From: Paracoccaceae bacterium | GTDB lineage: Bacteria > Pseudomonadota > Alphaproteobacteria > Rhodobacterales > Rhodobacteraceae | Assembly: GCA_027013095.1 (NCBI GenBank) | Contig: JALUYI010000019.1 | Coordinates: forward strand, 62,001 to 126,000 | Direction: 5' to 3' | Length of the DNA stretch: 64,000 nucleotides | Part shown: positions 9,677 to 62,822 of the stretch, piece by piece | Layout: every line of letters starts with the position of its first letter | Position numbering within the stretch: position 1 is the first letter of the stretch | Translations under genes and position numbers: made by a program | The notes under the pieces: model-generated | What the model was told of the DNA's origin: nothing | Seen by the model: only the letters and a program-made list of their open reading frames with translations | The model's database searches: none

Positions 9677-10438
9677 TCATTCCCCGCGGGTCAGGTTGCA
9701 AAGCTGGATCGCGCCACTGACCTCATCTGCCATGCGGGTCAGTTTTTCGCCCAGTTTTTCGCGGTAACGGGTCGAAAACTTGCGCGCCGATCCCGTTGCG
9801 CCAACCGAAAAGGTCACCCCTACATTGCCCAGACGCACAGGGGCCGCGACACTGGCAATGCCGGTCTCGATTTCCTGATTGCACTCGGCAAAGCCGCGTT
9901 GAACGACGGCATCCAGCTCGGCGCGGATGTCCGCGGGGCTGGTTTTCGTGTGCTCGGTAAAGCGGGCCAGATCGTCATTGAGCAGCTGCTGCTGAAAGGC
10001 GGGTTCGGCAAAGGCGGCGATGGCCTTGGCGCAGGAACAGGCGTGCAGTGGTCGTCGGCCAAGGCCGGGGTGGATATAGGGCCGCGTCGGATCGTCGGGA
10101 ATTTCCGCGTGGATGATCTCGACCTCGCCACCGCGCAGACGCGACAGAAACACCGTATCACCCAGCTGTGCCGCCGCCTTGCGCAGAACCGGCGCGACCG
10201 CCTGGCAGATATCGGAATCCGACGTCCCCAGCAGGGCAATGCGGATCAGCCGCTCGGCAATCAGGTAACGCCCGTCATTGTTCGGCGCGGCGATCAGCCG
10301 GTGCTGCGCCAGCGTCTGCAGCAGCCGGTAACAGGTCGGCCGCGGCAGGTTCGTTGCCCGTTGCAACTCGGCCACGCTGACCGGCCGGCCAGCCGCAGCG
10401 ATCAGTTCGAGCAGGGCAATAAGCCGTTCAAAATGCAT
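9677..10438 (-). CDS. IclR-family transcriptional regulator
   Basis: A 253-residue regulator. The N-terminal winged helix-turn-helix covers about residues 1-60 (FERLIALLELIAAAGRPVSV, then PRPTCYRLLQTL). The C-terminal IclR effector domain has LHACSCAKAIAAF and ends in ASVAAPVRLG and VTFSVGAT. It is divergent from the DsrE/TusA/flavoprotein/DUF1641 run. Two palindromes in the shared intergenic region (10465-10510) are good operator candidates, so it probably controls that operon, itself, or both. The effector is unknown. It converges on the EEP gene with a 38-nt gap. Confidence 0.9.
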   Translation of the reverse strand: MHFERLIALLELIAAAGRPVSVAELQRATNLPRPTCYRLLQTLAQHRLIAAPNNDGRYLIAERLIRIALLGTSDSDICQAVAPVLRKAAAQLGDTVFLSRLRGGEVEIIHAEIPDDPTRPYIHPGLGRRPLHACSCAKAIAAFAEPAFQQQLLNDDLARFTEHTKTSPADIRAELDAVVQRGFAECNQEIETGIASVAAPVRLGNVGVTFSVGATGSARKFSTRYREKLGEKLTRMADEVSGAIQLCNLTRGE

Positions 10439-10733: not shown

Positions 10734-11120
10734 TTGTCAAAAATCAGTATCACGGTGCTTTCGGGTAGCCGCGAAAAGGTGCAGTTCGCCGCGATGGCGG
10801 CGTCGGTGGCCGCGGTTAGCGGTTTTGATGTTACCGTTTTCCTGTCCATGAACGCATTGCCGTTGTTCCTGCGCGAAAATGCGCCGGCGCCGACCAACGA
10901 GGGCGCGTTTGGGGAATTGATGGAGGGCAAGAACATGCCCCCCTATCTGGACCTGTTCGAAAGCGCTGTGGATTTGGGGGACGCCCGCATCTACGCCTGC
11001 TCGATGGCGATGGACGTGATGGAGATCGGCAAAGATGCGCTGCAACCCTTCGTGACCGAGCCGATGGGATTGACGAAATTTCTCAGCGAGGCCGAGGGCG
11101 GCCAGTGCTGGAGCTTCTGA
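10734..11120 (+). CDS. DsrE-family (COG2044-like) sulfur-carrier protein
   Basis: A 128-residue protein of the DsrE/DsrF superfamily, with the pattern [20 protein letters not shown], a flavodoxin-like strand [12 protein letters not shown] and the conserved [15 protein letters not shown]. Cys89 in that motif is the likely persulfide carrier; a second cysteine (Cys125) is near the C-terminus. The start is TTG 10734, with GGGGAGA 7-8 nt upstream. It is the first gene of a run with TusA, a sulfide:quinone-reductase-like flavoprotein and DUF1641, so cytoplasmic sulfur transfer is likely. DsrE-like proteins commonly pass sulfur to TusA. Confidence 0.85.
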
Positions 11121-11134
11121 GCAAAGGGAACATC

Positions 11135-11365
11135 ATGTCAGAACGCAAGATAATTGACGCCCGCGGAACCTATTGTCCGGGGCCGCTGATGGAGCTGATC
11201 GCCGCCATGAAACAGGCTGAGATCGGCGATGAGCTGGAGATTTTGTCGACCGACGAGGGCTCGGTCAACGATGTGCCGGAATGGATCAACAAGGTTGGGC
11301 ACGACATGGTTGAAACCACGCAGGAGGGTGATGTCTGGCACATCATCGTGCGCAAGGCGAAATAG
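11135..11365 (+). CDS. TusA-family sulfurtransferase
   Basis: A 76-residue SirA/TusA-fold protein. The active motif is DARGTYCPGPLMEL, with the persulfide Cys14 and the conserved CPxP. The C-terminal half (VPEWINKVGHDMVETTQEGD) has the usual beta-alpha-beta layout. ATG 11135 follows AAAGGGAA; the longer open frame from 11105 would overlap the dsrE stop. The gene sits 14 nt after dsrE. In sulfur-oxidising and sulfur-trafficking loci TusA shuttles persulfide between DsrE-type proteins and downstream enzymes; that role is inferred here from context. Confidence 0.92.
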   Translation: MSERKIIDARGTYCPGPLMELIAAMKQAEIGDELEILSTDEGSVNDVPEWINKVGHDMVETTQEGDVWHIIVRKAK

Positions 11366-11565: not shown

Positions 11566-12696
11566 ATGAAGATTTTGATCGTTGGCGGAGGCATGGGGGG
11601 CACGATCGTGGCCAACAATCTGGCCCGGCGCCTAGAGAGCGAGCTGCGCTCGGGCAAGGCTCAGGTCACGATGTTGTCGGCCTCGGACCAGCATATGTAT
11701 CAGCCCGGGCTGCTTTATACCTCAATCGGTCGCATGGCGCCCGATGAGCTCTATCGCGACCAGCGCAGCCTGCTCGAACCCGAGGTCGAATTCCACGTTG
11801 ATCCGGTCGTGACCTTTGATCTGGACAACAATCAGGTCGTCACCAAATCGGGCAAGACCCACAGCTACGACCAGTTGGTGATCGCCACCGGTTCGCGCGC
11901 GGCACCTGAAACCATCCCCGGGCTGGCCGAAAATTCGGTCAACTGCTATACTGAAGCGGCGGCGCTGGAAATGCTGCGCCAGGTGCGCGACTTCAAGGGC
12001 GGCACGGTTGGTATCGTCGTTGGAGTGCCCCACAAATGCCCGATGATCCCGCTTGAGGTGACCTTTGTTCTGCATGACTATTTCAAGGAAAAGGGCATCG
12101 CCGACAAGGTGCAGTTCCAGTACACCTACCCCATCGGCCGGATTCACGCGCTGGCCCCGGTAGCCGAATGGGCAACCGGCGAATTTGCGCGCCTTGGCAT
12201 CAACACCACCACACTTTTCAACATGAAAGAGGTGGACGGCAACAAGATCGTTCATTCCGAAGAGGGCGAAACCGTCGATGCCGATCTGCTGATTGCGGTG
12301 CCGCCGCATCGGGGCATGCAGGTGATCGAGGACAACAATCTCGGCGGCAACGGCTTTATTCCGACCGACCGGCACAGCCTCAAAATGGATGGTCGCGACA
12401 ACGTCTATATCGTCGGCGACACCACCAACCTGCCGATCTCGAAAGCTGGCTCAACCGCGCATTTCGAGGCCGAGGCCGTGGCCGAGAATCTGGCGGCGCT
12501 GATCAAGTTCGGCACCTCCGTTCGCGACTATGACGGCAAGGTGTTCTGCTTTATCGAAGCGGGCAAGGAACGGGCGACCTACGCCATGTTCGATTATAAC
12601 AACCCGCCCAATCCAAAAGCGCCGAACAAGGCTGTTCACTGGTTCAAGATGGCCTATAACCAACTTTACTGGGCGTCCGCACGCGGACTTCTCTGA
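11566..12696 (+). CDS. Sulfide:quinone oxidoreductase-like FAD flavoprotein
   Basis: A 376-residue FAD/NAD(P)-type disulfide oxidoreductase of the SQR/flavocytochrome c group. The N-terminal dinucleotide site is MKILIVGGGMGGTIVANNLA, the middle motif LVIATGSRAAPETIPGL, and the C-terminal FAD motif VYIVGDTTNLPISKAGSTAH. Cysteines at 127, 158 (HKCPMIP) and 328 are spaced roughly like the three functional cysteines of SQR. AGGAGG-type ribosome-binding site AGGAGGATT precedes the ATG. No signal peptide is seen. It likely transfers electrons from sulfide or bound persulfide to quinone; the downstream DUF1641 protein is a known genomic companion of such flavoproteins. Confidence 0.82.
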   Translation: MKILIVGGGMGGTIVANNLARRLESELRSGKAQVTMLSASDQHMYQPGLLYTSIGRMAPDELYRDQRSLLEPEVEFHVDPVVTFDLDNNQVVTKSGKTHSYDQLVIATGSRAAPETIPGLAENSVNCYTEAAALEMLRQVRDFKGGTVGIVVGVPHKCPMIPLEVTFVLHDYFKEKGIADKVQFQYTYPIGRIHALAPVAEWATGEFARLGINTTTLFNMKEVDGNKIVHSEEGETVDADLLIAVPPHRGMQVIEDNNLGGNGFIPTDRHSLKMDGRDNVYIVGDTTNLPISKAGSTAHFEAEAVAENLAALIKFGTSVRDYDGKVFCFIEAGKERATYAMFDYNNPPNPKAPNKAVHWFKMAYNQLYWASARGLL

Positions 12697-12707
12697 GGAG
12701 TCTGGTC

Positions 12708-13679
12708 ATGGCAAACACAGCAAAGACTTCTCCCGGGGACGGTCCCCGGTCGCGGGCTGAGGCGCTGGTGGATGAGCTGGTCGAAAACGGCGATCTCGAT
12801 AACCTAGTGCATCTGGCCCGGCTGATCGGTTCGGCGCAGGATGCGTTGACCGACGATATGGTCACGCGACTAGCGGGGACGGCGGCTGGCGGCATGGACC
12901 TTTTGGACAAGGCCAACCGCTCAGGTGTTGCCCGCGCGCTGCCGGCGATTTCGGCACTGGTTGAGAACGGCGATCTTGACCGCTTGGTCGAGATGGCGCG
13001 GCTGGTGGGCTCGGCGCAGGATGCGTTGACCGACGACATGGTCACGCGACTGGCGGGGACGGCGGCTGGCGGCATGGACCTTTTGGATAAGGCCAACCGC
13101 TCGGGTGTTGCCCGCGCGCTGCCGGCGATTTCGGCACTGGTTGAGAACGGCGATCTTGACCGCTTGGTCGAGATGGCGCGGCTGATCGGTTCGGCGCAGG
13201 ATGCGTTGACCGACGATATGGTCACGCGACTGGCGGGGACGGCGGCTGGCGGCATGGACCTTTTGGATAAGGCCAACCGCTCAGGCGTTGCCCGCGCGCT
13301 GCCGGCGATTTCGGCACTGGTTGAGAACGGCGATCTTGACCGCTTGGTCGAGATGGCGCGGCTGGTGGGCTCGGCGCAGGATGCGTTGACCGACGATATG
13401 GTCACGCGACTGGCTCGGGTGGCCAGCGAGGGCATGATCCTGATTGACCGGCTGACGCGTTCGGACGGCTTTTTGAACCTGATCCGCCTGATCGAGCGCC
13501 CGGATATCGGCGATACGCTTGCGACCCTTCTGGGGGCCTTGGCCGAGGCGCATGAGGCGGTACGCGAAACCCCTGCAAAGGGCGGCCTTGGCGGCGCGTT
13601 GCGTCTGGTCAACGATCCGGGGACGCAGGACGCCTTGCGTCTGGTCTCGGTGATTGGCAAGGCGTTGAGTGCACGTTAA
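12708..13679 (+). CDS. DUF1641 protein expanded by 60-residue tandem repeats
   Basis: A 323-residue protein. A short N-terminus (SRAEALVDELVENG) leads into almost identical 60-residue units (residues 25-84, 85-144, 145-204 and the partial 205-236), each starting VENGDLDRLVEMARL and containing AQDALTDDMVTRLAG. The unique C-terminal part (LTRSDGFLNLIRLIERPDIG) resembles the end of an ordinary DUF1641 domain. DUF1641 proteins are small companions of SQR-like flavoproteins with no defined reaction. The repeats would form a helical rod or a multivalent platform; this is inference. The start is 11 nt after the flavoprotein stop, and a terminator follows, so it closes the operon. Confidence 0.85.
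   Translation: MANTAKTSPGDGPRSRAEALVDELVENGDLDNLVHLARLIGSAQDALTDDMVTRLAGTAAGGMDLLDKANRSGVARALPAISALVENGDLDRLVEMARLVGSAQDALTDDMVTRLAGTAAGGMDLLDKANRSGVARALPAISALVENGDLDRLVEMARLIGSAQDALTDDMVTRLAGTAAGGMDLLDKANRSGVARALPAISALVENGDLDRLVEMARLVGSAQDALTDDMVTRLARVASEGMILIDRLTRSDGFLNLIRLIERPDIGDTLATLLGALAEAHEAVRETPAKGGLGGALRLVNDPGTQDALRLVSVIGKALSAR
12780..13415 (+). repeat. 180-bp in-frame tandem repeat, about 3.5 copies
   Basis: Period exactly 180 bp: units at 12780-12959, 12960-13139, 13140-13319 and partial 13320-13415. Units 2 and 3 differ at about six positions out of 180. The codons for LIG versus LVG (GCTGATCGGT or GCTGGTGGGC) alternate in units 1/3 and 2/4, which suggests duplication of a 360-bp dimer or exchange between units. 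All copies keep the reading frame. Confidence 0.95.
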
Positions 13680-14049: not shown

Positions 14050-15018
14050 ATGATGATGAAACATGCCGCGGCCTTTGCCGTCGCTCTCGGGTTGGCCAGT
14101 CCGGCTGTCGCAACCGAATGGAACATGCCCACGCCATATGGCGACACGACGTTCCACACGATCAATATCCACCATTTCGCCAAGGACGTGAAGGCGGCGA
14201 CCAATGGCGCGCTGAACATCACCGTTCATTCGGCCGGATCGCTGTTTCCACATGCCGAAATCAAGAACGCCGTGCGCTCGGGTCAGGTGCAGATCGGTGA
14301 GTTTTTCCTGTCACGCCTCTCGAACGAGGATGCGGCCTTTGGCATTGACAGCCAGCCGTTTGTTGCCACCTCTTATGGCGATGCGGCGCGTCTTTGGGCG
14401 GCGCAAAAGCCGGTCGTGACCAAGCTGTTGGCCAAACAGGGGCTGATGCCGCTGTTTTCCGTGCCGTGGCCGGCGCAGGGCCTTTACACCAAGGGTGAGG
14501 TCAAGACCGTGGCCGATCTTGCAGGCCTGCGTTTTCGCGCCTACAACGCCGCGCTTGAGGAATTTGCGACCCTTGCCAAGGCCTCGCCCGTGCAGATCGA
14601 GGCGCCGAATATCCCGCAGGCATTTGCCACCGGACAGGTGCAGGCGATGATTACCTCGCCCTCGACAGGGGCCAACTCAAAGGCGTGGGATTTCGTTAAT
14701 TATTACACCCCGATCAACGCCTGGGTGCCGAAAAACATCGTGGTGGTGAACAAGGCGGCCTTTGATGCGCTGCCGGCAAACGTGCAAAAGGCAGTGCTGG
14801 ATGCCGCTGCCACGGCCGAAAAGCGCGGCTGGGATATGTCCAAGGCCGAGGCCGCGGCGAAAACCAAGGTGATGGCGGATCACGGCATGAAAATCGTTCA
14901 GCCCTCAGCAGAACTGATGTCGGGTCTGAAAAAGATCGGCGCGACGATGCTGGGCAACTGGAAATCCAAGGCCAGCCCCGATGCGCTGGCGATCCTCAAG
15001 GCCTATCAGGGCGGCTGA
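14050..15018 (+). CDS. TRAP transporter periplasmic substrate-binding protein (DctP type)
   Basis: A 322-residue periplasmic binding protein with signal peptide MMMKHAAAFAVALGLASPAVA. It has the usual DctP landmarks: an early INIHHFAKDVKAATNG helix, VRSGQVQIGEFFLS, and AGLRFRAYNAALEEF, whose Arg residues correspond to the carboxylate-binding region of the family, then VQAMITSPSTGA. The start is ATG 14050, preceded by GGGAGAAAA. It heads a dctPQM unit separated from the sulfur genes by a terminator. The substrate is unknown; most TRAP ligands are carboxylated or sulfonated organic acids. Confidence 0.9.
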   Translation: MMMKHAAAFAVALGLASPAVATEWNMPTPYGDTTFHTINIHHFAKDVKAATNGALNITVHSAGSLFPHAEIKNAVRSGQVQIGEFFLSRLSNEDAAFGIDSQPFVATSYGDAARLWAAQKPVVTKLLAKQGLMPLFSVPWPAQGLYTKGEVKTVADLAGLRFRAYNAALEEFATLAKASPVQIEAPNIPQAFATGQVQAMITSPSTGANSKAWDFVNYYTPINAWVPKNIVVVNKAAFDALPANVQKAVLDAAATAEKRGWDMSKAEAAAKTKVMADHGMKIVQPSAELMSGLKKIGATMLGNWKSKASPDALAILKAYQGG

Positions 15019-15120
15019 GGCGCCATATCCGTCGCCGAAAACTGTTGAAAACGGCGGCGGTGGTGTAACGGATAAAACTGGTCGCTCCCGATGACGGGGG
15101 CGGCCTGATCGGGGGGCTTG

Positions 15121-15648
15121 ATGCGCGTATTTCTTGACCGGCTCTATGCCCTTGCGGGGGGGCTTGCGGCGTTTTTTATCGTGCTGATATGCCTTGTCGT
15201 CTCGGCCCAGATCCTGCTGAATATCCTTGCGCGTCTTGGCGGCCCGTCGCTGGCCTATACGATCCCGTCTTACGCCGATTTCGCCGGTTTTTTTCTGGCC
15301 GCGGCCAGTTTTCTGGGGCTGGCCTATACCCTGCGTCACGGCGCCCATATCCGTGTCAATCTGGTGGTGCAACTGCTGGCGCCGCGTCCACGCCTGTGGC
15401 TTGAGGTGCTGACCCTTGTGGGCGGAGGCGTCATGTCGGGCTATGCCACGTGGTTTGCCGCGTCGCTGCTGGGTCAGAGTTGGCGTTTTGGCGACAAATC
15501 GCCGGGCATCATTGCCATTCCACTGTGGGTGCCGCAGATTTTTATGGTCGCGGGGCTGGGCCTGTTGGCGCTGGCGTTTCTGGATACCGCGCTAGAGACC
15601 TGGCGCAAGGGCGCGCCGGTTTTGGTTGACGAGGGCGGCGTGGAATGA
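15121..15648 (+). CDS. TRAP transporter small membrane subunit (DctQ type)
   Basis: A 175-residue protein with four transmembrane segments (starting LYALAGGLAAFFIVLICLVV), the conserved YADFAGFFLAAASFLGLAYTLRHGAHI region between segments 2 and 3, and a cytoplasmic C-terminus. ATG 15121 is used rather than the adjacent TTG 15118; GGGGGG upstream serves as a weak ribosome-binding site. Its stop overlaps the large-subunit start by 4 nt. It forms the membrane complex with the DctM-type protein that follows. Confidence 0.9.
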   Translation: MRVFLDRLYALAGGLAAFFIVLICLVVSAQILLNILARLGGPSLAYTIPSYADFAGFFLAAASFLGLAYTLRHGAHIRVNLVVQLLAPRPRLWLEVLTLVGGGVMSGYATWFAASLLGQSWRFGDKSPGIIAIPLWVPQIFMVAGLGLLALAFLDTALETWRKGAPVLVDEGGVE

Positions 15649-16946
15649 GCGATCCGATGGTTTTTGCCACCCTCCTCGGGCTGCTTTTGGTGTTGCTCGC
15701 TGCAGGCATGTGGGTGGCGGTGTCGCTGCTGATTGTGGCCTTTGTTGCGATTGTCGCGTTTTCGCCAGCGCCTGTCGGGCTGGTTCTGGCGACGACGTTA
15801 TGGGGGCATAGCCATTCGTGGCCGCTGGCGGCGCTGCCGCTGTTTATCCTGATGGGCGAGATTTTGCTGCGCTCGCGCTTGTCCGAGGATATGTTTTCCG
15901 GCCTTGCGCCGTGGCTGGGCCGCGCGCCGGGGCGTCTGTTGCATGTGAATATTCTGGGCTGTGCGATCTTTGCTGCTGTGTCCGGGTCCTCAGCCGCAAC
16001 GGCGGCCACCATCGGGCGGATGTCGGTGCCGGAACTGACGCGCCGCAAATACCCCGAGTCGTTGATTATCGGCACGCTTGCGGGGTCGGCCACGCTGGGC
16101 CTGTTGATCCCGCCTTCGATCATCCTGATCGTTTACGGGGTTGCGACCGAACAATCCATCGCCCGCCTGTTTATCGCGGGGATTTTGCCGGGGCTAATGC
16201 TGGTGACGCTGTTTGCGGGCTATGTCATGGCGCGCGCGATGATCAATCCCGGCCTTATCCCGCATGAGGATGCCCGCCCCAGCCTTGGCGAGAAACTGGC
16301 CGCCTCAAGGCGCCTGATCCCGGTTATTTTGCTGATCGCGGGGGTGATCGGCTCAATCTATACCGGCGTTGCCTCGCCTACTGATGCCGCCGCGCTGGGG
16401 GTTTTGCTGTCAACCATTCTGGCCGCCTCGTCGGGTAGTTTTGGCTGGCAAAAGGCCCGCGAGGCGCTGATGTCGGCCACACGCACCTCGGTCATGATCT
16501 CGTTCATCCTGCTGGCGGCGGCATTTTTGACGATCGCCATGGGCTTCACCGGCATCCCGCGCAATCTGGCGGCGTGGATCGGGACATTCAACCTCAGCCC
16601 GTTTGAATTGCTGGCCGCGCTGACGGTTTTCTTTATCGTTCTGGGCTGTTTTCTTGACGGGATTTCGGTGGTGGTTTTGACCACCTCGATCATCCTGCCG
16701 ATGGTGCAGGCCGAGGGGATCGATCCGCTCTGGTTCGGAATTTACCTTGTACTGGTGGTCGAGATGGCGCAAATCACCCCGCCGGTCGGTTTTAACCTTT
16801 TCGTTATTCAGGGGCTGACTGGCATCAATATCCTCAGGATCGCCGCCCATGCCCTGCCGTTTTTCATGCTGCTTTTACTTGGCGTTGTCATCATCACCGT
16901 TTTCCCGGCGATCGTCACGGTTCTGCCGGGCCTGATGGGGCGCTAA
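15645..16946 (+). CDS. TRAP transporter large membrane subunit (DctM type)
   Basis: A 433-residue, roughly 12-transmembrane ion-coupled permease. Family stretches include LPLFILMGEILLRSRLSEDM, AVSGSSAATAATIGRMSVPE and TLAGSATLGLLIPPSIILIV, plus a second inverted-repeat half with FLDGISVVVLTTSIILP and MAQITPPVGFNLFVIQ. Together with the DctP and DctQ proteins it forms a Na+-dependent organic-acid uptake system. The start overlaps dctQ (ATGA), and its stop overlaps the end of the convergent cupin gene by 3 nt. Confidence 0.93.
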   Translation: MSDPMVFATLLGLLLVLLAAGMWVAVSLLIVAFVAIVAFSPAPVGLVLATTLWGHSHSWPLAALPLFILMGEILLRSRLSEDMFSGLAPWLGRAPGRLLHVNILGCAIFAAVSGSSAATAATIGRMSVPELTRRKYPESLIIGTLAGSATLGLLIPPSIILIVYGVATEQSIARLFIAGILPGLMLVTLFAGYVMARAMINPGLIPHEDARPSLGEKLAASRRLIPVILLIAGVIGSIYTGVASPTDAAALGVLLSTILAASSGSFGWQKAREALMSATRTSVMISFILLAAAFLTIAMGFTGIPRNLAAWIGTFNLSPFELLAALTVFFIVLGCFLDGISVVVLTTSIILPMVQAEGIDPLWFGIYLVLVVEMAQITPPVGFNLFVIQGLTGINILRIAAHALPFFMLLLLGVVIITVFPAIVTVLPGLMGR

Positions 16947-60845: not shown

Positions 60846-62822
60846 TCAGGCGGCGGTGCGTGGGTCATCGCGGGTGGGAGTTGCCTCAGGAGGGACCAGT
60901 TTGTTCTCGACCGGTGTTGTCTTTTGGTTTTCTGCCATTGATCTTGCCGGGTGGCTGGTTGGTTCGGCTACGGGTTTTCGGCGCTGTTTTGGTTTGGCGT
61001 GGTCAGCCGGATTGGGCGCTGCCGAACTGTTCTTGCCTGCAGTCTGAGCTTTGGGAGACGCTGGCGCCGGGTTCAGCTTGGCGCTGGGGATGTCGGCTTC
61101 ACCCGCGCCGGCGACCGAGGTGCGATCGCGCCCGTTTGCCTTGGCGGCGTATAATGCGTTATCCGCGGATTTGATCAGGTCTTGGGGGATTGTCCCGTGG
61201 TTCGGGAACGTGGCTACCCCGAGAGAAATACTAATACGCGGCAGGGTTTTGTCGCCGTATCGCACGCTGATTTCTGAGACCGTCTTGCGTAGTTTTTCGG
61301 CTTTTTTAACCCCATCGGCCAGAGTCGTATTCGGGAGGAGGGCCATGAATTCTTCGCCGCCGATGCGACAGGGCAGCTCATCGCCATCGCACAGGCGATC
61401 CATTGCTGCGCCAACGGCGCGAAGCACCATGTCCCCCGCGTCATGGCCGTGATTGTCGTTGAATCTCTTGAAATGATCCACGTCCACCGAAACCAGCGTG
61501 ACCGGCAGGTTGTCGCGTTGTGCGTGTTCGATGTGACGGCGCAGGGTTTCGGTAAAGTGGCGACGGTTGAACAATCCGGTCAGGGGGTCGCGGATGGACT
61601 GGTGGTGCAACTGGTCACGCAGGCGCACGTTAGCGATGGCCAGGCTGATCTGTTCCGCGCACATCTGCGCCAGTTTGCGGATCTCCTGAAATTTCTTGCA
61701 TTCAGCGTTTTCCGTTGCCATCAGAGACATCAGGCCGACAGTTTCTCCGTGGGCGAGGATCGGAAAGCAGATATAGGGGCGGCCGTCGTCCTGTTTGATA
61801 TGGCCACAGACAAAGTCGATTTCGCTGCTGCCATAGGCATAGGTCCGGCCACGGCGCAGGCCCCAGCAGGCCTCGGGACGTATGTGGTCGTGTAACTCGC
61901 CGCCGTTCCAACTGCATGCGCCGTCCAGAACGTCGCGCGAGTTTGAATAGACGTAGATACTGCCAGCGCAGTTGGGCAACAGTCGGGTCATGAATGCGTT
62001 GACCATATCAAACAATTCTTCGAGCGAGCGGCTGGATTGCAGCCATTCGTTTAATTCGGACAGCAAGCGCACCTCGCGGCCGAGGCGCATCTGTTCATCT
62101 AGCAGCAGTTTTTCCTTTTCGGCCCGCGCGTGTTCGGTCCGGATCCGGCTGCTGCCCGCCATGAATACAGCGGCGATTGCACCCCCGGCGATCAGCGCCC
62201 CCAGCGCTGAAAAAATGGCCAGCACATAACGGACGCGTTGGGAAAAAGTGGCCCGCAGGTTGGTGATGTCGCGGTAAAATTCGGTCGCGCCGATAAATCG
62301 GCCCTGATCAAAGACTGGCATGTAGATTTCGGCAATCAGCCGGGATCGCCCAGGATCCCCGGGCATTGATCGGCTGAGCTCGGGCAGATCGGAAAGGGAG
62401 GTCTGACTGCGTTTGTAATAGCTGTGACCCTGCGCCACGATCGAATGGAAATAGGTTTTTTTGTTCAGTTTTCCGACTTCGGAGACCCGGGTAGCATAGA
62501 ATATCCGGCCGCTTCTGGTGAACATCTTGAAGCGGAACACGTCGCTGCTGGTGGTGAACAGGTCCAGTTTTTCGCCGTCTTTCGGGCTGATGCGACCACT
62601 GATAAAGGCGGTGCGCCCCTTGGAGAGCAGTTTCAGGATGCGCTGGTTCCATTTGGCCGAGGCCTGGATCATGTTGTCGGCCAGCAGGCGGTCGGCGATC
62701 GGGCCGGGCAGAAAGACCACAGCGCCAAAGGCAAAGGCCGAGACGGCAAGAACCATGGCGAGAGGGCGCACCGTGGATTTCAGCACCCTGATGCCCGGGC
62801 GGTTGGCGAGTTTTTTCAGCAT
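60846..62822 (-). CDS. Diguanylate cyclase with periplasmic sensor and GAF domain
   Basis: A 658-residue c-di-GMP synthase. Two transmembrane helices (about 18-42 and 195-220) flank an extracytoplasmic sensor region; a GAF domain follows (about 255-400), and then GGDEF (about 405-575) with LTGLFNRRHFTETL, NDNHGHDAGDMVL and the active GGEEF at 488-492. The I-site RxxD is absent (the matching residues read DGDE), so product inhibition should be weak. The last 80-90 residues are a Pro/Lys/Ala-rich low-complexity tail. The ATG is at 62822. It is divergent from uvrD and shares a control region with a LexA-type box. Confidence 0.92.
   Translation of the reverse strand: MLKKLANRPGIRVLKSTVRPLAMVLAVSAFAFGAVVFLPGPIADRLLADNMIQASAKWNQRILKLLSKGRTAFISGRISPKDGEKLDLFTTSSDVFRFKMFTRSGRIFYATRVSEVGKLNKKTYFHSIVAQGHSYYKRSQTSLSDLPELSRSMPGDPGRSRLIAEIYMPVFDQGRFIGATEFYRDITNLRATFSQRVRYVLAIFSALGALIAGGAIAAVFMAGSSRIRTEHARAEKEKLLLDEQMRLGREVRLLSELNEWLQSSRSLEELFDMVNAFMTRLLPNCAGSIYVYSNSRDVLDGACSWNGGELHDHIRPEACWGLRRGRTYAYGSSEIDFVCGHIKQDDGRPYICFPILAHGETVGLMSLMATENAECKKFQEIRKLAQMCAEQISLAIANVRLRDQLHHQSIRDPLTGLFNRRHFTETLRRHIEHAQRDNLPVTLVSVDVDHFKRFNDNHGHDAGDMVLRAVGAAMDRLCDGDELPCRIGGEEFMALLPNTTLADGVKKAEKLRKTVSEISVRYGDKTLPRISISLGVATFPNHGTIPQDLIKSADNALYAAKANGRDRTSVAGAGEADIPSAKLNPAPASPKAQTAGKNSSAAPNPADHAKPKQRRKPVAEPTSHPARSMAENQKTTPVENKLVPPEATPTRDDPRTAA

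Follow-up and report, generated by a model that had tools for sequence, protein, structure and literature searches.

What does it mean that the last gene of a small sulfur-carrier cassette is built largely from near-identical 180-bp units, and how might the protein that it encodes serve the redox enzyme encoded next to it? The question is raised by a contig of a Paracoccaceae bacterium (GenBank assembly GCA_027013095.1, contig JALUYI010000019.1), of which we analyzed positions 62,001 to 126,000, a stretch of 64,000 nucleotides hereafter called the window. The cassette is compact and ordered dsrE-tusA-(type III SQR-like flavoprotein)-repeat protein, so that the repeat gene is the fourth and last, at the end of the sulfur-carrier/flavoprotein genes where the original prediction for this locus had placed it. 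The features under discussion are collected in Table 1.

Table 1. Features of the cassette and of its repeat gene, in window coordinates.
Feature	Positions	Strand	Basis or remark
IclR-family regulator, divergent from the cassette	9677..10438	-	Pfam IclR_C 93 bits and HTH_IclR
DsrE-family sulfur-carrier protein, TTG start	10734..11120	+	Pfam DrsE_2 43 bits, DsrE 29 bits
TusA sulfur carrier	11135..11365	+	Pfam TusA 83.6 bits
Type III SQR-like FAD flavoprotein, 376 aa	11566..12696	+	Pfam Pyr_redox_2; NCBIfam SQR_III_seleno 291 bits
Repeat protein, 323 aa, last cassette gene	12708..13679	+	ORF call; in almost all loci a relative comes after the flavoprotein
Repeat unit 1 (IGS type)	12777..12956	+	Unit alignment
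Repeat unit 2 (VGS type)	12957..13136	+	Unit alignment
Repeat unit 3 (IGS type), 6/180 differences from unit 2	13137..13316	+	Unit alignment
Repeat unit 4, partial (VGS type), merging into the unique C-terminal part	13317..13415	+	Tandem Repeats Finder and unit alignment
C-terminal DUF1641-like segment (AKGGLGG...), single copy	13575..13676	+	Lies where PF07849 matches relatives L026, L015 and L078

Within the 323-aa ORF, four units of 60 amino acids (180 bp) lie head to tail and in frame. In the register used here, which begins at 12777, copies 1 to 3 are full, and copy 4 matches up to about base 98 before passing into the unique C-terminal part. Tandem Repeats Finder placed the array at 12814-13414 (period 180, 3.3 copies, 95% matches, 0 indels) with a score of 1118, the second-best array of the window scoring 77. 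The near-identity of the in-frame units had been predicted and was confirmed, copies 2 and 3 differing at exactly 6 of 180 bases; copies 1 and 3 differ at 16 of 180, with 13 of these differences falling within the first 42 bases. The predicted alternation of LIG and LVG variants was also recovered in the codons, which are ATC GGT in copies 1 and 3 and GTG GGC in copies 2 and 4. A 360-bp dimer had been proposed as the duplicating element, and the units are indeed more alike at lag 360 than at lag 180 (over 236 bases, 4 mismatches versus 11; longest stretch of identity, 110 versus 81 bases), but the contrast is weak and falls short of significance (Fisher p = 0.11), and the likeness could equally stem from a short conversion tract. 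On the opposite strand, an ORF of 338 aa (12644-13660, minus strand) runs across the entire repeat gene; it is most probably a shadow ORF that owes its open frame to the repeat and to high G+C.

The assemblies of the two closest relatives are broken at the repeat, with the remainder of the gene on another contig. In one of them, the end of locus L004 and the start of locus L089 (reverse strand) belong to contigs of one MAG that overlap by exactly 127 nt within unit 1, which suggests a branch in the assembly graph, possibly reflecting two alleles in the sampled population; taken at face value this pair amounts to a 3-unit gene, and the other close relative has a gap inside the repeat. The real copy number in the window could exceed four. 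That short-read assembly simply made or lost the copies is nevertheless hardly credible, given that the copies of the window bear distinguishing base differences, that the array sits inside a contig reaching well past the window edges, and that the 60-residue period recurs in about 80 independent assemblies, including isolates and a complete Acidithiobacillus genome (L083).

Relatives were collected by searching the genome collection with the flavoprotein, which returned 80 loci at 66-95% identity; in nearly all of these, a relative of the repeat protein adjoins the flavoprotein, and in alignment the relatives are 40-71% identical to the repeat protein of the window. The distribution of the cassette is patchy. 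Homologs of the repeat protein were absent from nine congeners and from a 395-genome sample of the family, and of 385 genomes from the class, 5 carry the flavoprotein. Sampling 398 genomes across the phylum yielded relatives in 7 other genomes, all as short open frames (178-220 aa), and a tblastn search of plasmids gave no match.

In the 80 closest loci, adjacent units are exactly 60 residues apart in every pair. We define here a 60-residue repeat family of the dsrE-tusA-SQR III cassette, in which at least two units at exact 60-residue spacing are encoded directly downstream of the flavoprotein, as they are in the window. Anchor counts over 84 sequences gave three units in 49, two in 30, one in four and four in the window alone; these counts take in four loci from the same class that are more distant, with a spacing of 64 where two units are seen, as well as a few genes cut at contig ends for which the count is a lower bound. 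Protein lengths are quantized accordingly, with medians of 203 aa for two units and 263.5 aa for three, against 323 aa in the window. Copy number thus varies among relatives, as had been anticipated, and the relatives do not all share one number of diverged copies, an observation that would have spoken against the original prediction. On the other hand, single-unit relatives, which had been assumed to be the ordinary form, are confined to distant loci with about one clear unit, nearly all relatives having two or three. Since the relatives carry two or three units of identical length, the protein gains and loses whole units in evolution. Among the distant alphaproteobacterial cassettes (L085-L088), units lie 64 rather than 60 residues apart or only one of them is clear, possibly a form beyond strict 60-residue repetition.

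The timing of unit turnover can be read from DNA identities. The full units of the window are 96-98% identical with each other (0.90-0.95 at third codon positions). By comparison, its flavoprotein gene and that of the nearest relative (L004/L089) encode proteins 95% identical in amino acids and agree at only 0.65 of third positions, and the units of the window are only about 80% identical in DNA to those of this relative, whose own units share 93% identity among themselves (0.83 at third positions). The likeness within each protein thus exceeds that between the two relatives, which implies that the units became alike after the lineages split. Of 50 multi-unit proteins, 10 have units that are monophyletic, in some cases with low support, and those of the window are the most alike; by contrast, other proteins, for example those of L045, L047 and L051, hold old units that have kept their positions, with orthologous identity above 0.8 versus about 0.63 within a protein. 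Turnover is therefore recurrent, not universal. From these sequence comparisons, we infer that copy number changes by unequal recombination of whole units; gene conversion would be able to yield similar homogenization.

Mapped on the flavoprotein tree, the changes between two and three units number at least 14, of which 11 are forced by well-supported branches, although short-read collapse could have converted some 3-unit counts to 2. Isolates of Acidithiobacillus also differ, with two units in L057 and L072 and three in L082 and in the complete genome L083. Such scattered changes, the step of always one whole unit that recombination would be expected to produce, and the distant relatives that get by with about one clear unit together speak for neutral length tolerance, the main rival to the interpretation that we develop below: the N-terminal part would work with about two units or more, and recombination would let their number drift without functional effect. 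We regard this as somewhat unlikely, because the range is narrow (two or three units in 79 of 84 sequences) and because ten residues (D1, D5, R10, D23, R27, P35, G44, D45, R48 and R54) are kept in 95-100% of 96 units, conservation at unit positions 1-11 being partly set by the way in which units were picked. Residues that are nearly invariant within each unit imply that every unit is under constraint.

The same conserved charged positions, repeated unit after unit in a cassette that holds three potential partners, could also belong to a multivalent scaffold, in which the stoichiometry would follow from unit number, each unit docking a single flavoprotein, DsrE or TusA. This more exciting rival is rather unlikely: the invariant residues could equally serve contacts between units, and ForE, a characterized DUF1641 partner protein, acts in a two-subunit complex (PMC8808070). 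Quite improbable is a reading in which the array would act as a recombination-driven dial of length or valency, moving in whole 60-residue steps within populations and under selection, and tuning either the hold of the flavoprotein at the membrane or the number of carrier or enzyme molecules recruited.

Structural modeling gave a partial picture of the unit. AlphaFold2 predicted an all-helical protein for the window gene, with about three helices per unit (e.g. 109-132, 134-146 and 150-164) and a mean pLDDT of 73, but its pTM was 0.26, and that of a 2-unit relative 0.37. In these models the helices are credible and their packing is not; the predicted amphipathic character of the helices was borne out, while the regular solenoid expected from the repeat was not predicted with confidence. 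No segment of the repeat protein is hydrophobic enough for a transmembrane helix. A Foldseek search with the 4-unit model returned no structural match (best E 4.2), and alignments of the 2-unit model with ESCRT-III, Vipp1 and PspA chains by VIA-align (Z 2-3, rmsd about 27) were dismissed as not meaningful.

The repeated unit had originally been equated with the DUF1641 domain, an assignment that the profile searches place elsewhere in the protein. The PF07849 (DUF1641) model spans 39 positions with a cut-off of 21 bits, and in relatives its match is confined to the C-terminal segment (27.9 bits in L026, 28.0 in L015 and 32 in L078). It is matched at E<0.01 by 28 of 67 aligned relatives; near relatives of the window fall under the cut-off (20.4 bits in L007, 10.2 in L006), and neither the window protein nor its C-terminal 91 aa gave a PF07849 match at E up to 1. 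Its tie to DUF1641 comes instead through homology to the relatives that pass the cut-off, whose matches fall at the corresponding C-terminal position. Judging from these matches, the DUF1641 segment is a single C-terminal copy downstream of the repeat and distinct from the repeated unit. Weak matches to AbiEi_4, TPR_26, TrbH (NF010409) and DUF7691 were rejected, being mostly sums over units whose single stretches fail.

The neighborhood gives the repeat protein a constant context. Wherever a forward-read related locus leaves more than 1.5 kb of space (71 loci), dsrE and tusA are present upstream; the distant reverse-read locus L085 shows tusA only. We call the flavoprotein SQR-like because its score against NF049943 (SQR_III_seleno), a model of the selenoprotein subtype of type III SQR, is 291 bits, under the model cut-off of 525. 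Its Cys158 and Cys328 are kept in 84 of 84 sequences, and from what is known of SQR we take these cysteines to have a redox role. Among the related loci, only the closest three (L004-L006) have the IclR regulator next to the cassette, and there clear similarity to the window stops at this gene. Directly downstream of the cassette, the window carries TRAP transporter genes for DctP, DctQ and DctM (14050-16943, plus strand); neither DctP nor DctM turned up next to the cassette in L006 or L007. A distant second SQR-like flavoprotein, 26% identical, is encoded elsewhere in the same genome (L113, G000:C10:61454-62632).

Taken together, we hold with moderate confidence that the repeat protein is a helical partner that couples the SQR-like flavoprotein to the membrane or to quinone and that bears a modular, recombination-prone N-terminal array. 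In such a scheme, DsrE and TusA would handle protein-bound sulfane sulfur; the flavoprotein, through its two invariant cysteines, would carry out the oxidation and then hand electrons to quinone; and the repeat protein would help to keep the flavoprotein at the membrane or at quinone. The conserved C-terminal GG-x-GG segment would be the coupling part, and the N-terminal part a modular array of all-helical 60-residue units whose number (2-4) would shift by whole-unit unequal recombination. Recent duplication or homogenization by recombination in some lineages, most of all that of the window, would account for near-identical units. A widespread DUF1641 branch, associated with DsrE, TusA and an SQR-like flavoprotein, is modular and built on a strict 60-residue unit, its natural 2-, 3- and 4-unit versions can serve to probe the function of the N-terminal part, and its homogenized units offer a case of concerted evolution within a metabolic accessory gene and not a surface protein.

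The best explanation for these features is that the repeat protein is a relative of the DUF1641 proteins by which soluble redox enzymes are coupled to the membrane or the quinone pool; that such proteins serve soluble quinone-reducing enzymes as coupling subunits is only now gaining recognition. NDH-2, like SQR, is a flavoprotein quinone reductase, and the two share a superfamily. A profile of our family matches the PDB chains 9snk_B (YjlC) and 9pxk_E (named NDH-2 membrane coupling protein) with E-values from 3e-5 to 6e-4. The match to 9snk_B (E 3.1e-5 and 2.9e-4) is weak and limited to the C-terminal region, the best single stretches reaching E 0.006-0.8. YjlC is matched by the family profile across the C-terminal DUF1641 region, but differs from the repeat protein in its length of 140-176 aa and in that repeated units were not noted; it is an NDH-2 partner by its name, its function being the one that the depositors named, and a search of the open literature found no paper on the YjlC structures. 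In Bacillus subtilis, the formate dehydrogenase ForC needs the DUF1641 protein ForE (YjgD/YrhD) to use menaquinone, and the ForC/ForE complex copurifies with menaquinone (PMC8808070). As described there, ForE is, like the repeat protein, small and predicted to lack cofactors, is encoded beside a soluble redox enzyme, and has a DUF1641 segment and no transmembrane helix; unlike it, ForE measures 17-21 kDa, is not reported to have a tandem 60-residue array, and serves a molybdenum formate dehydrogenase instead of an SQR-like flavoprotein (PMC8808070). The open literature mentioning DUF1641, judged mainly by titles and abstracts, does not describe this 60-residue repeat. Closest to the window protein are the repeat proteins of the dsrE-tusA-SQR III cassettes of Acidithiobacillus, Ferrovum, Gallionella, Burkholderiales and others (loci L006-L083), which share with it the cassette, the 60-residue unit and the C-terminal segment. 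They differ in having two or three units, usually more diverged among themselves, and the window protein, with its four units, marks the upper end of the observed series.
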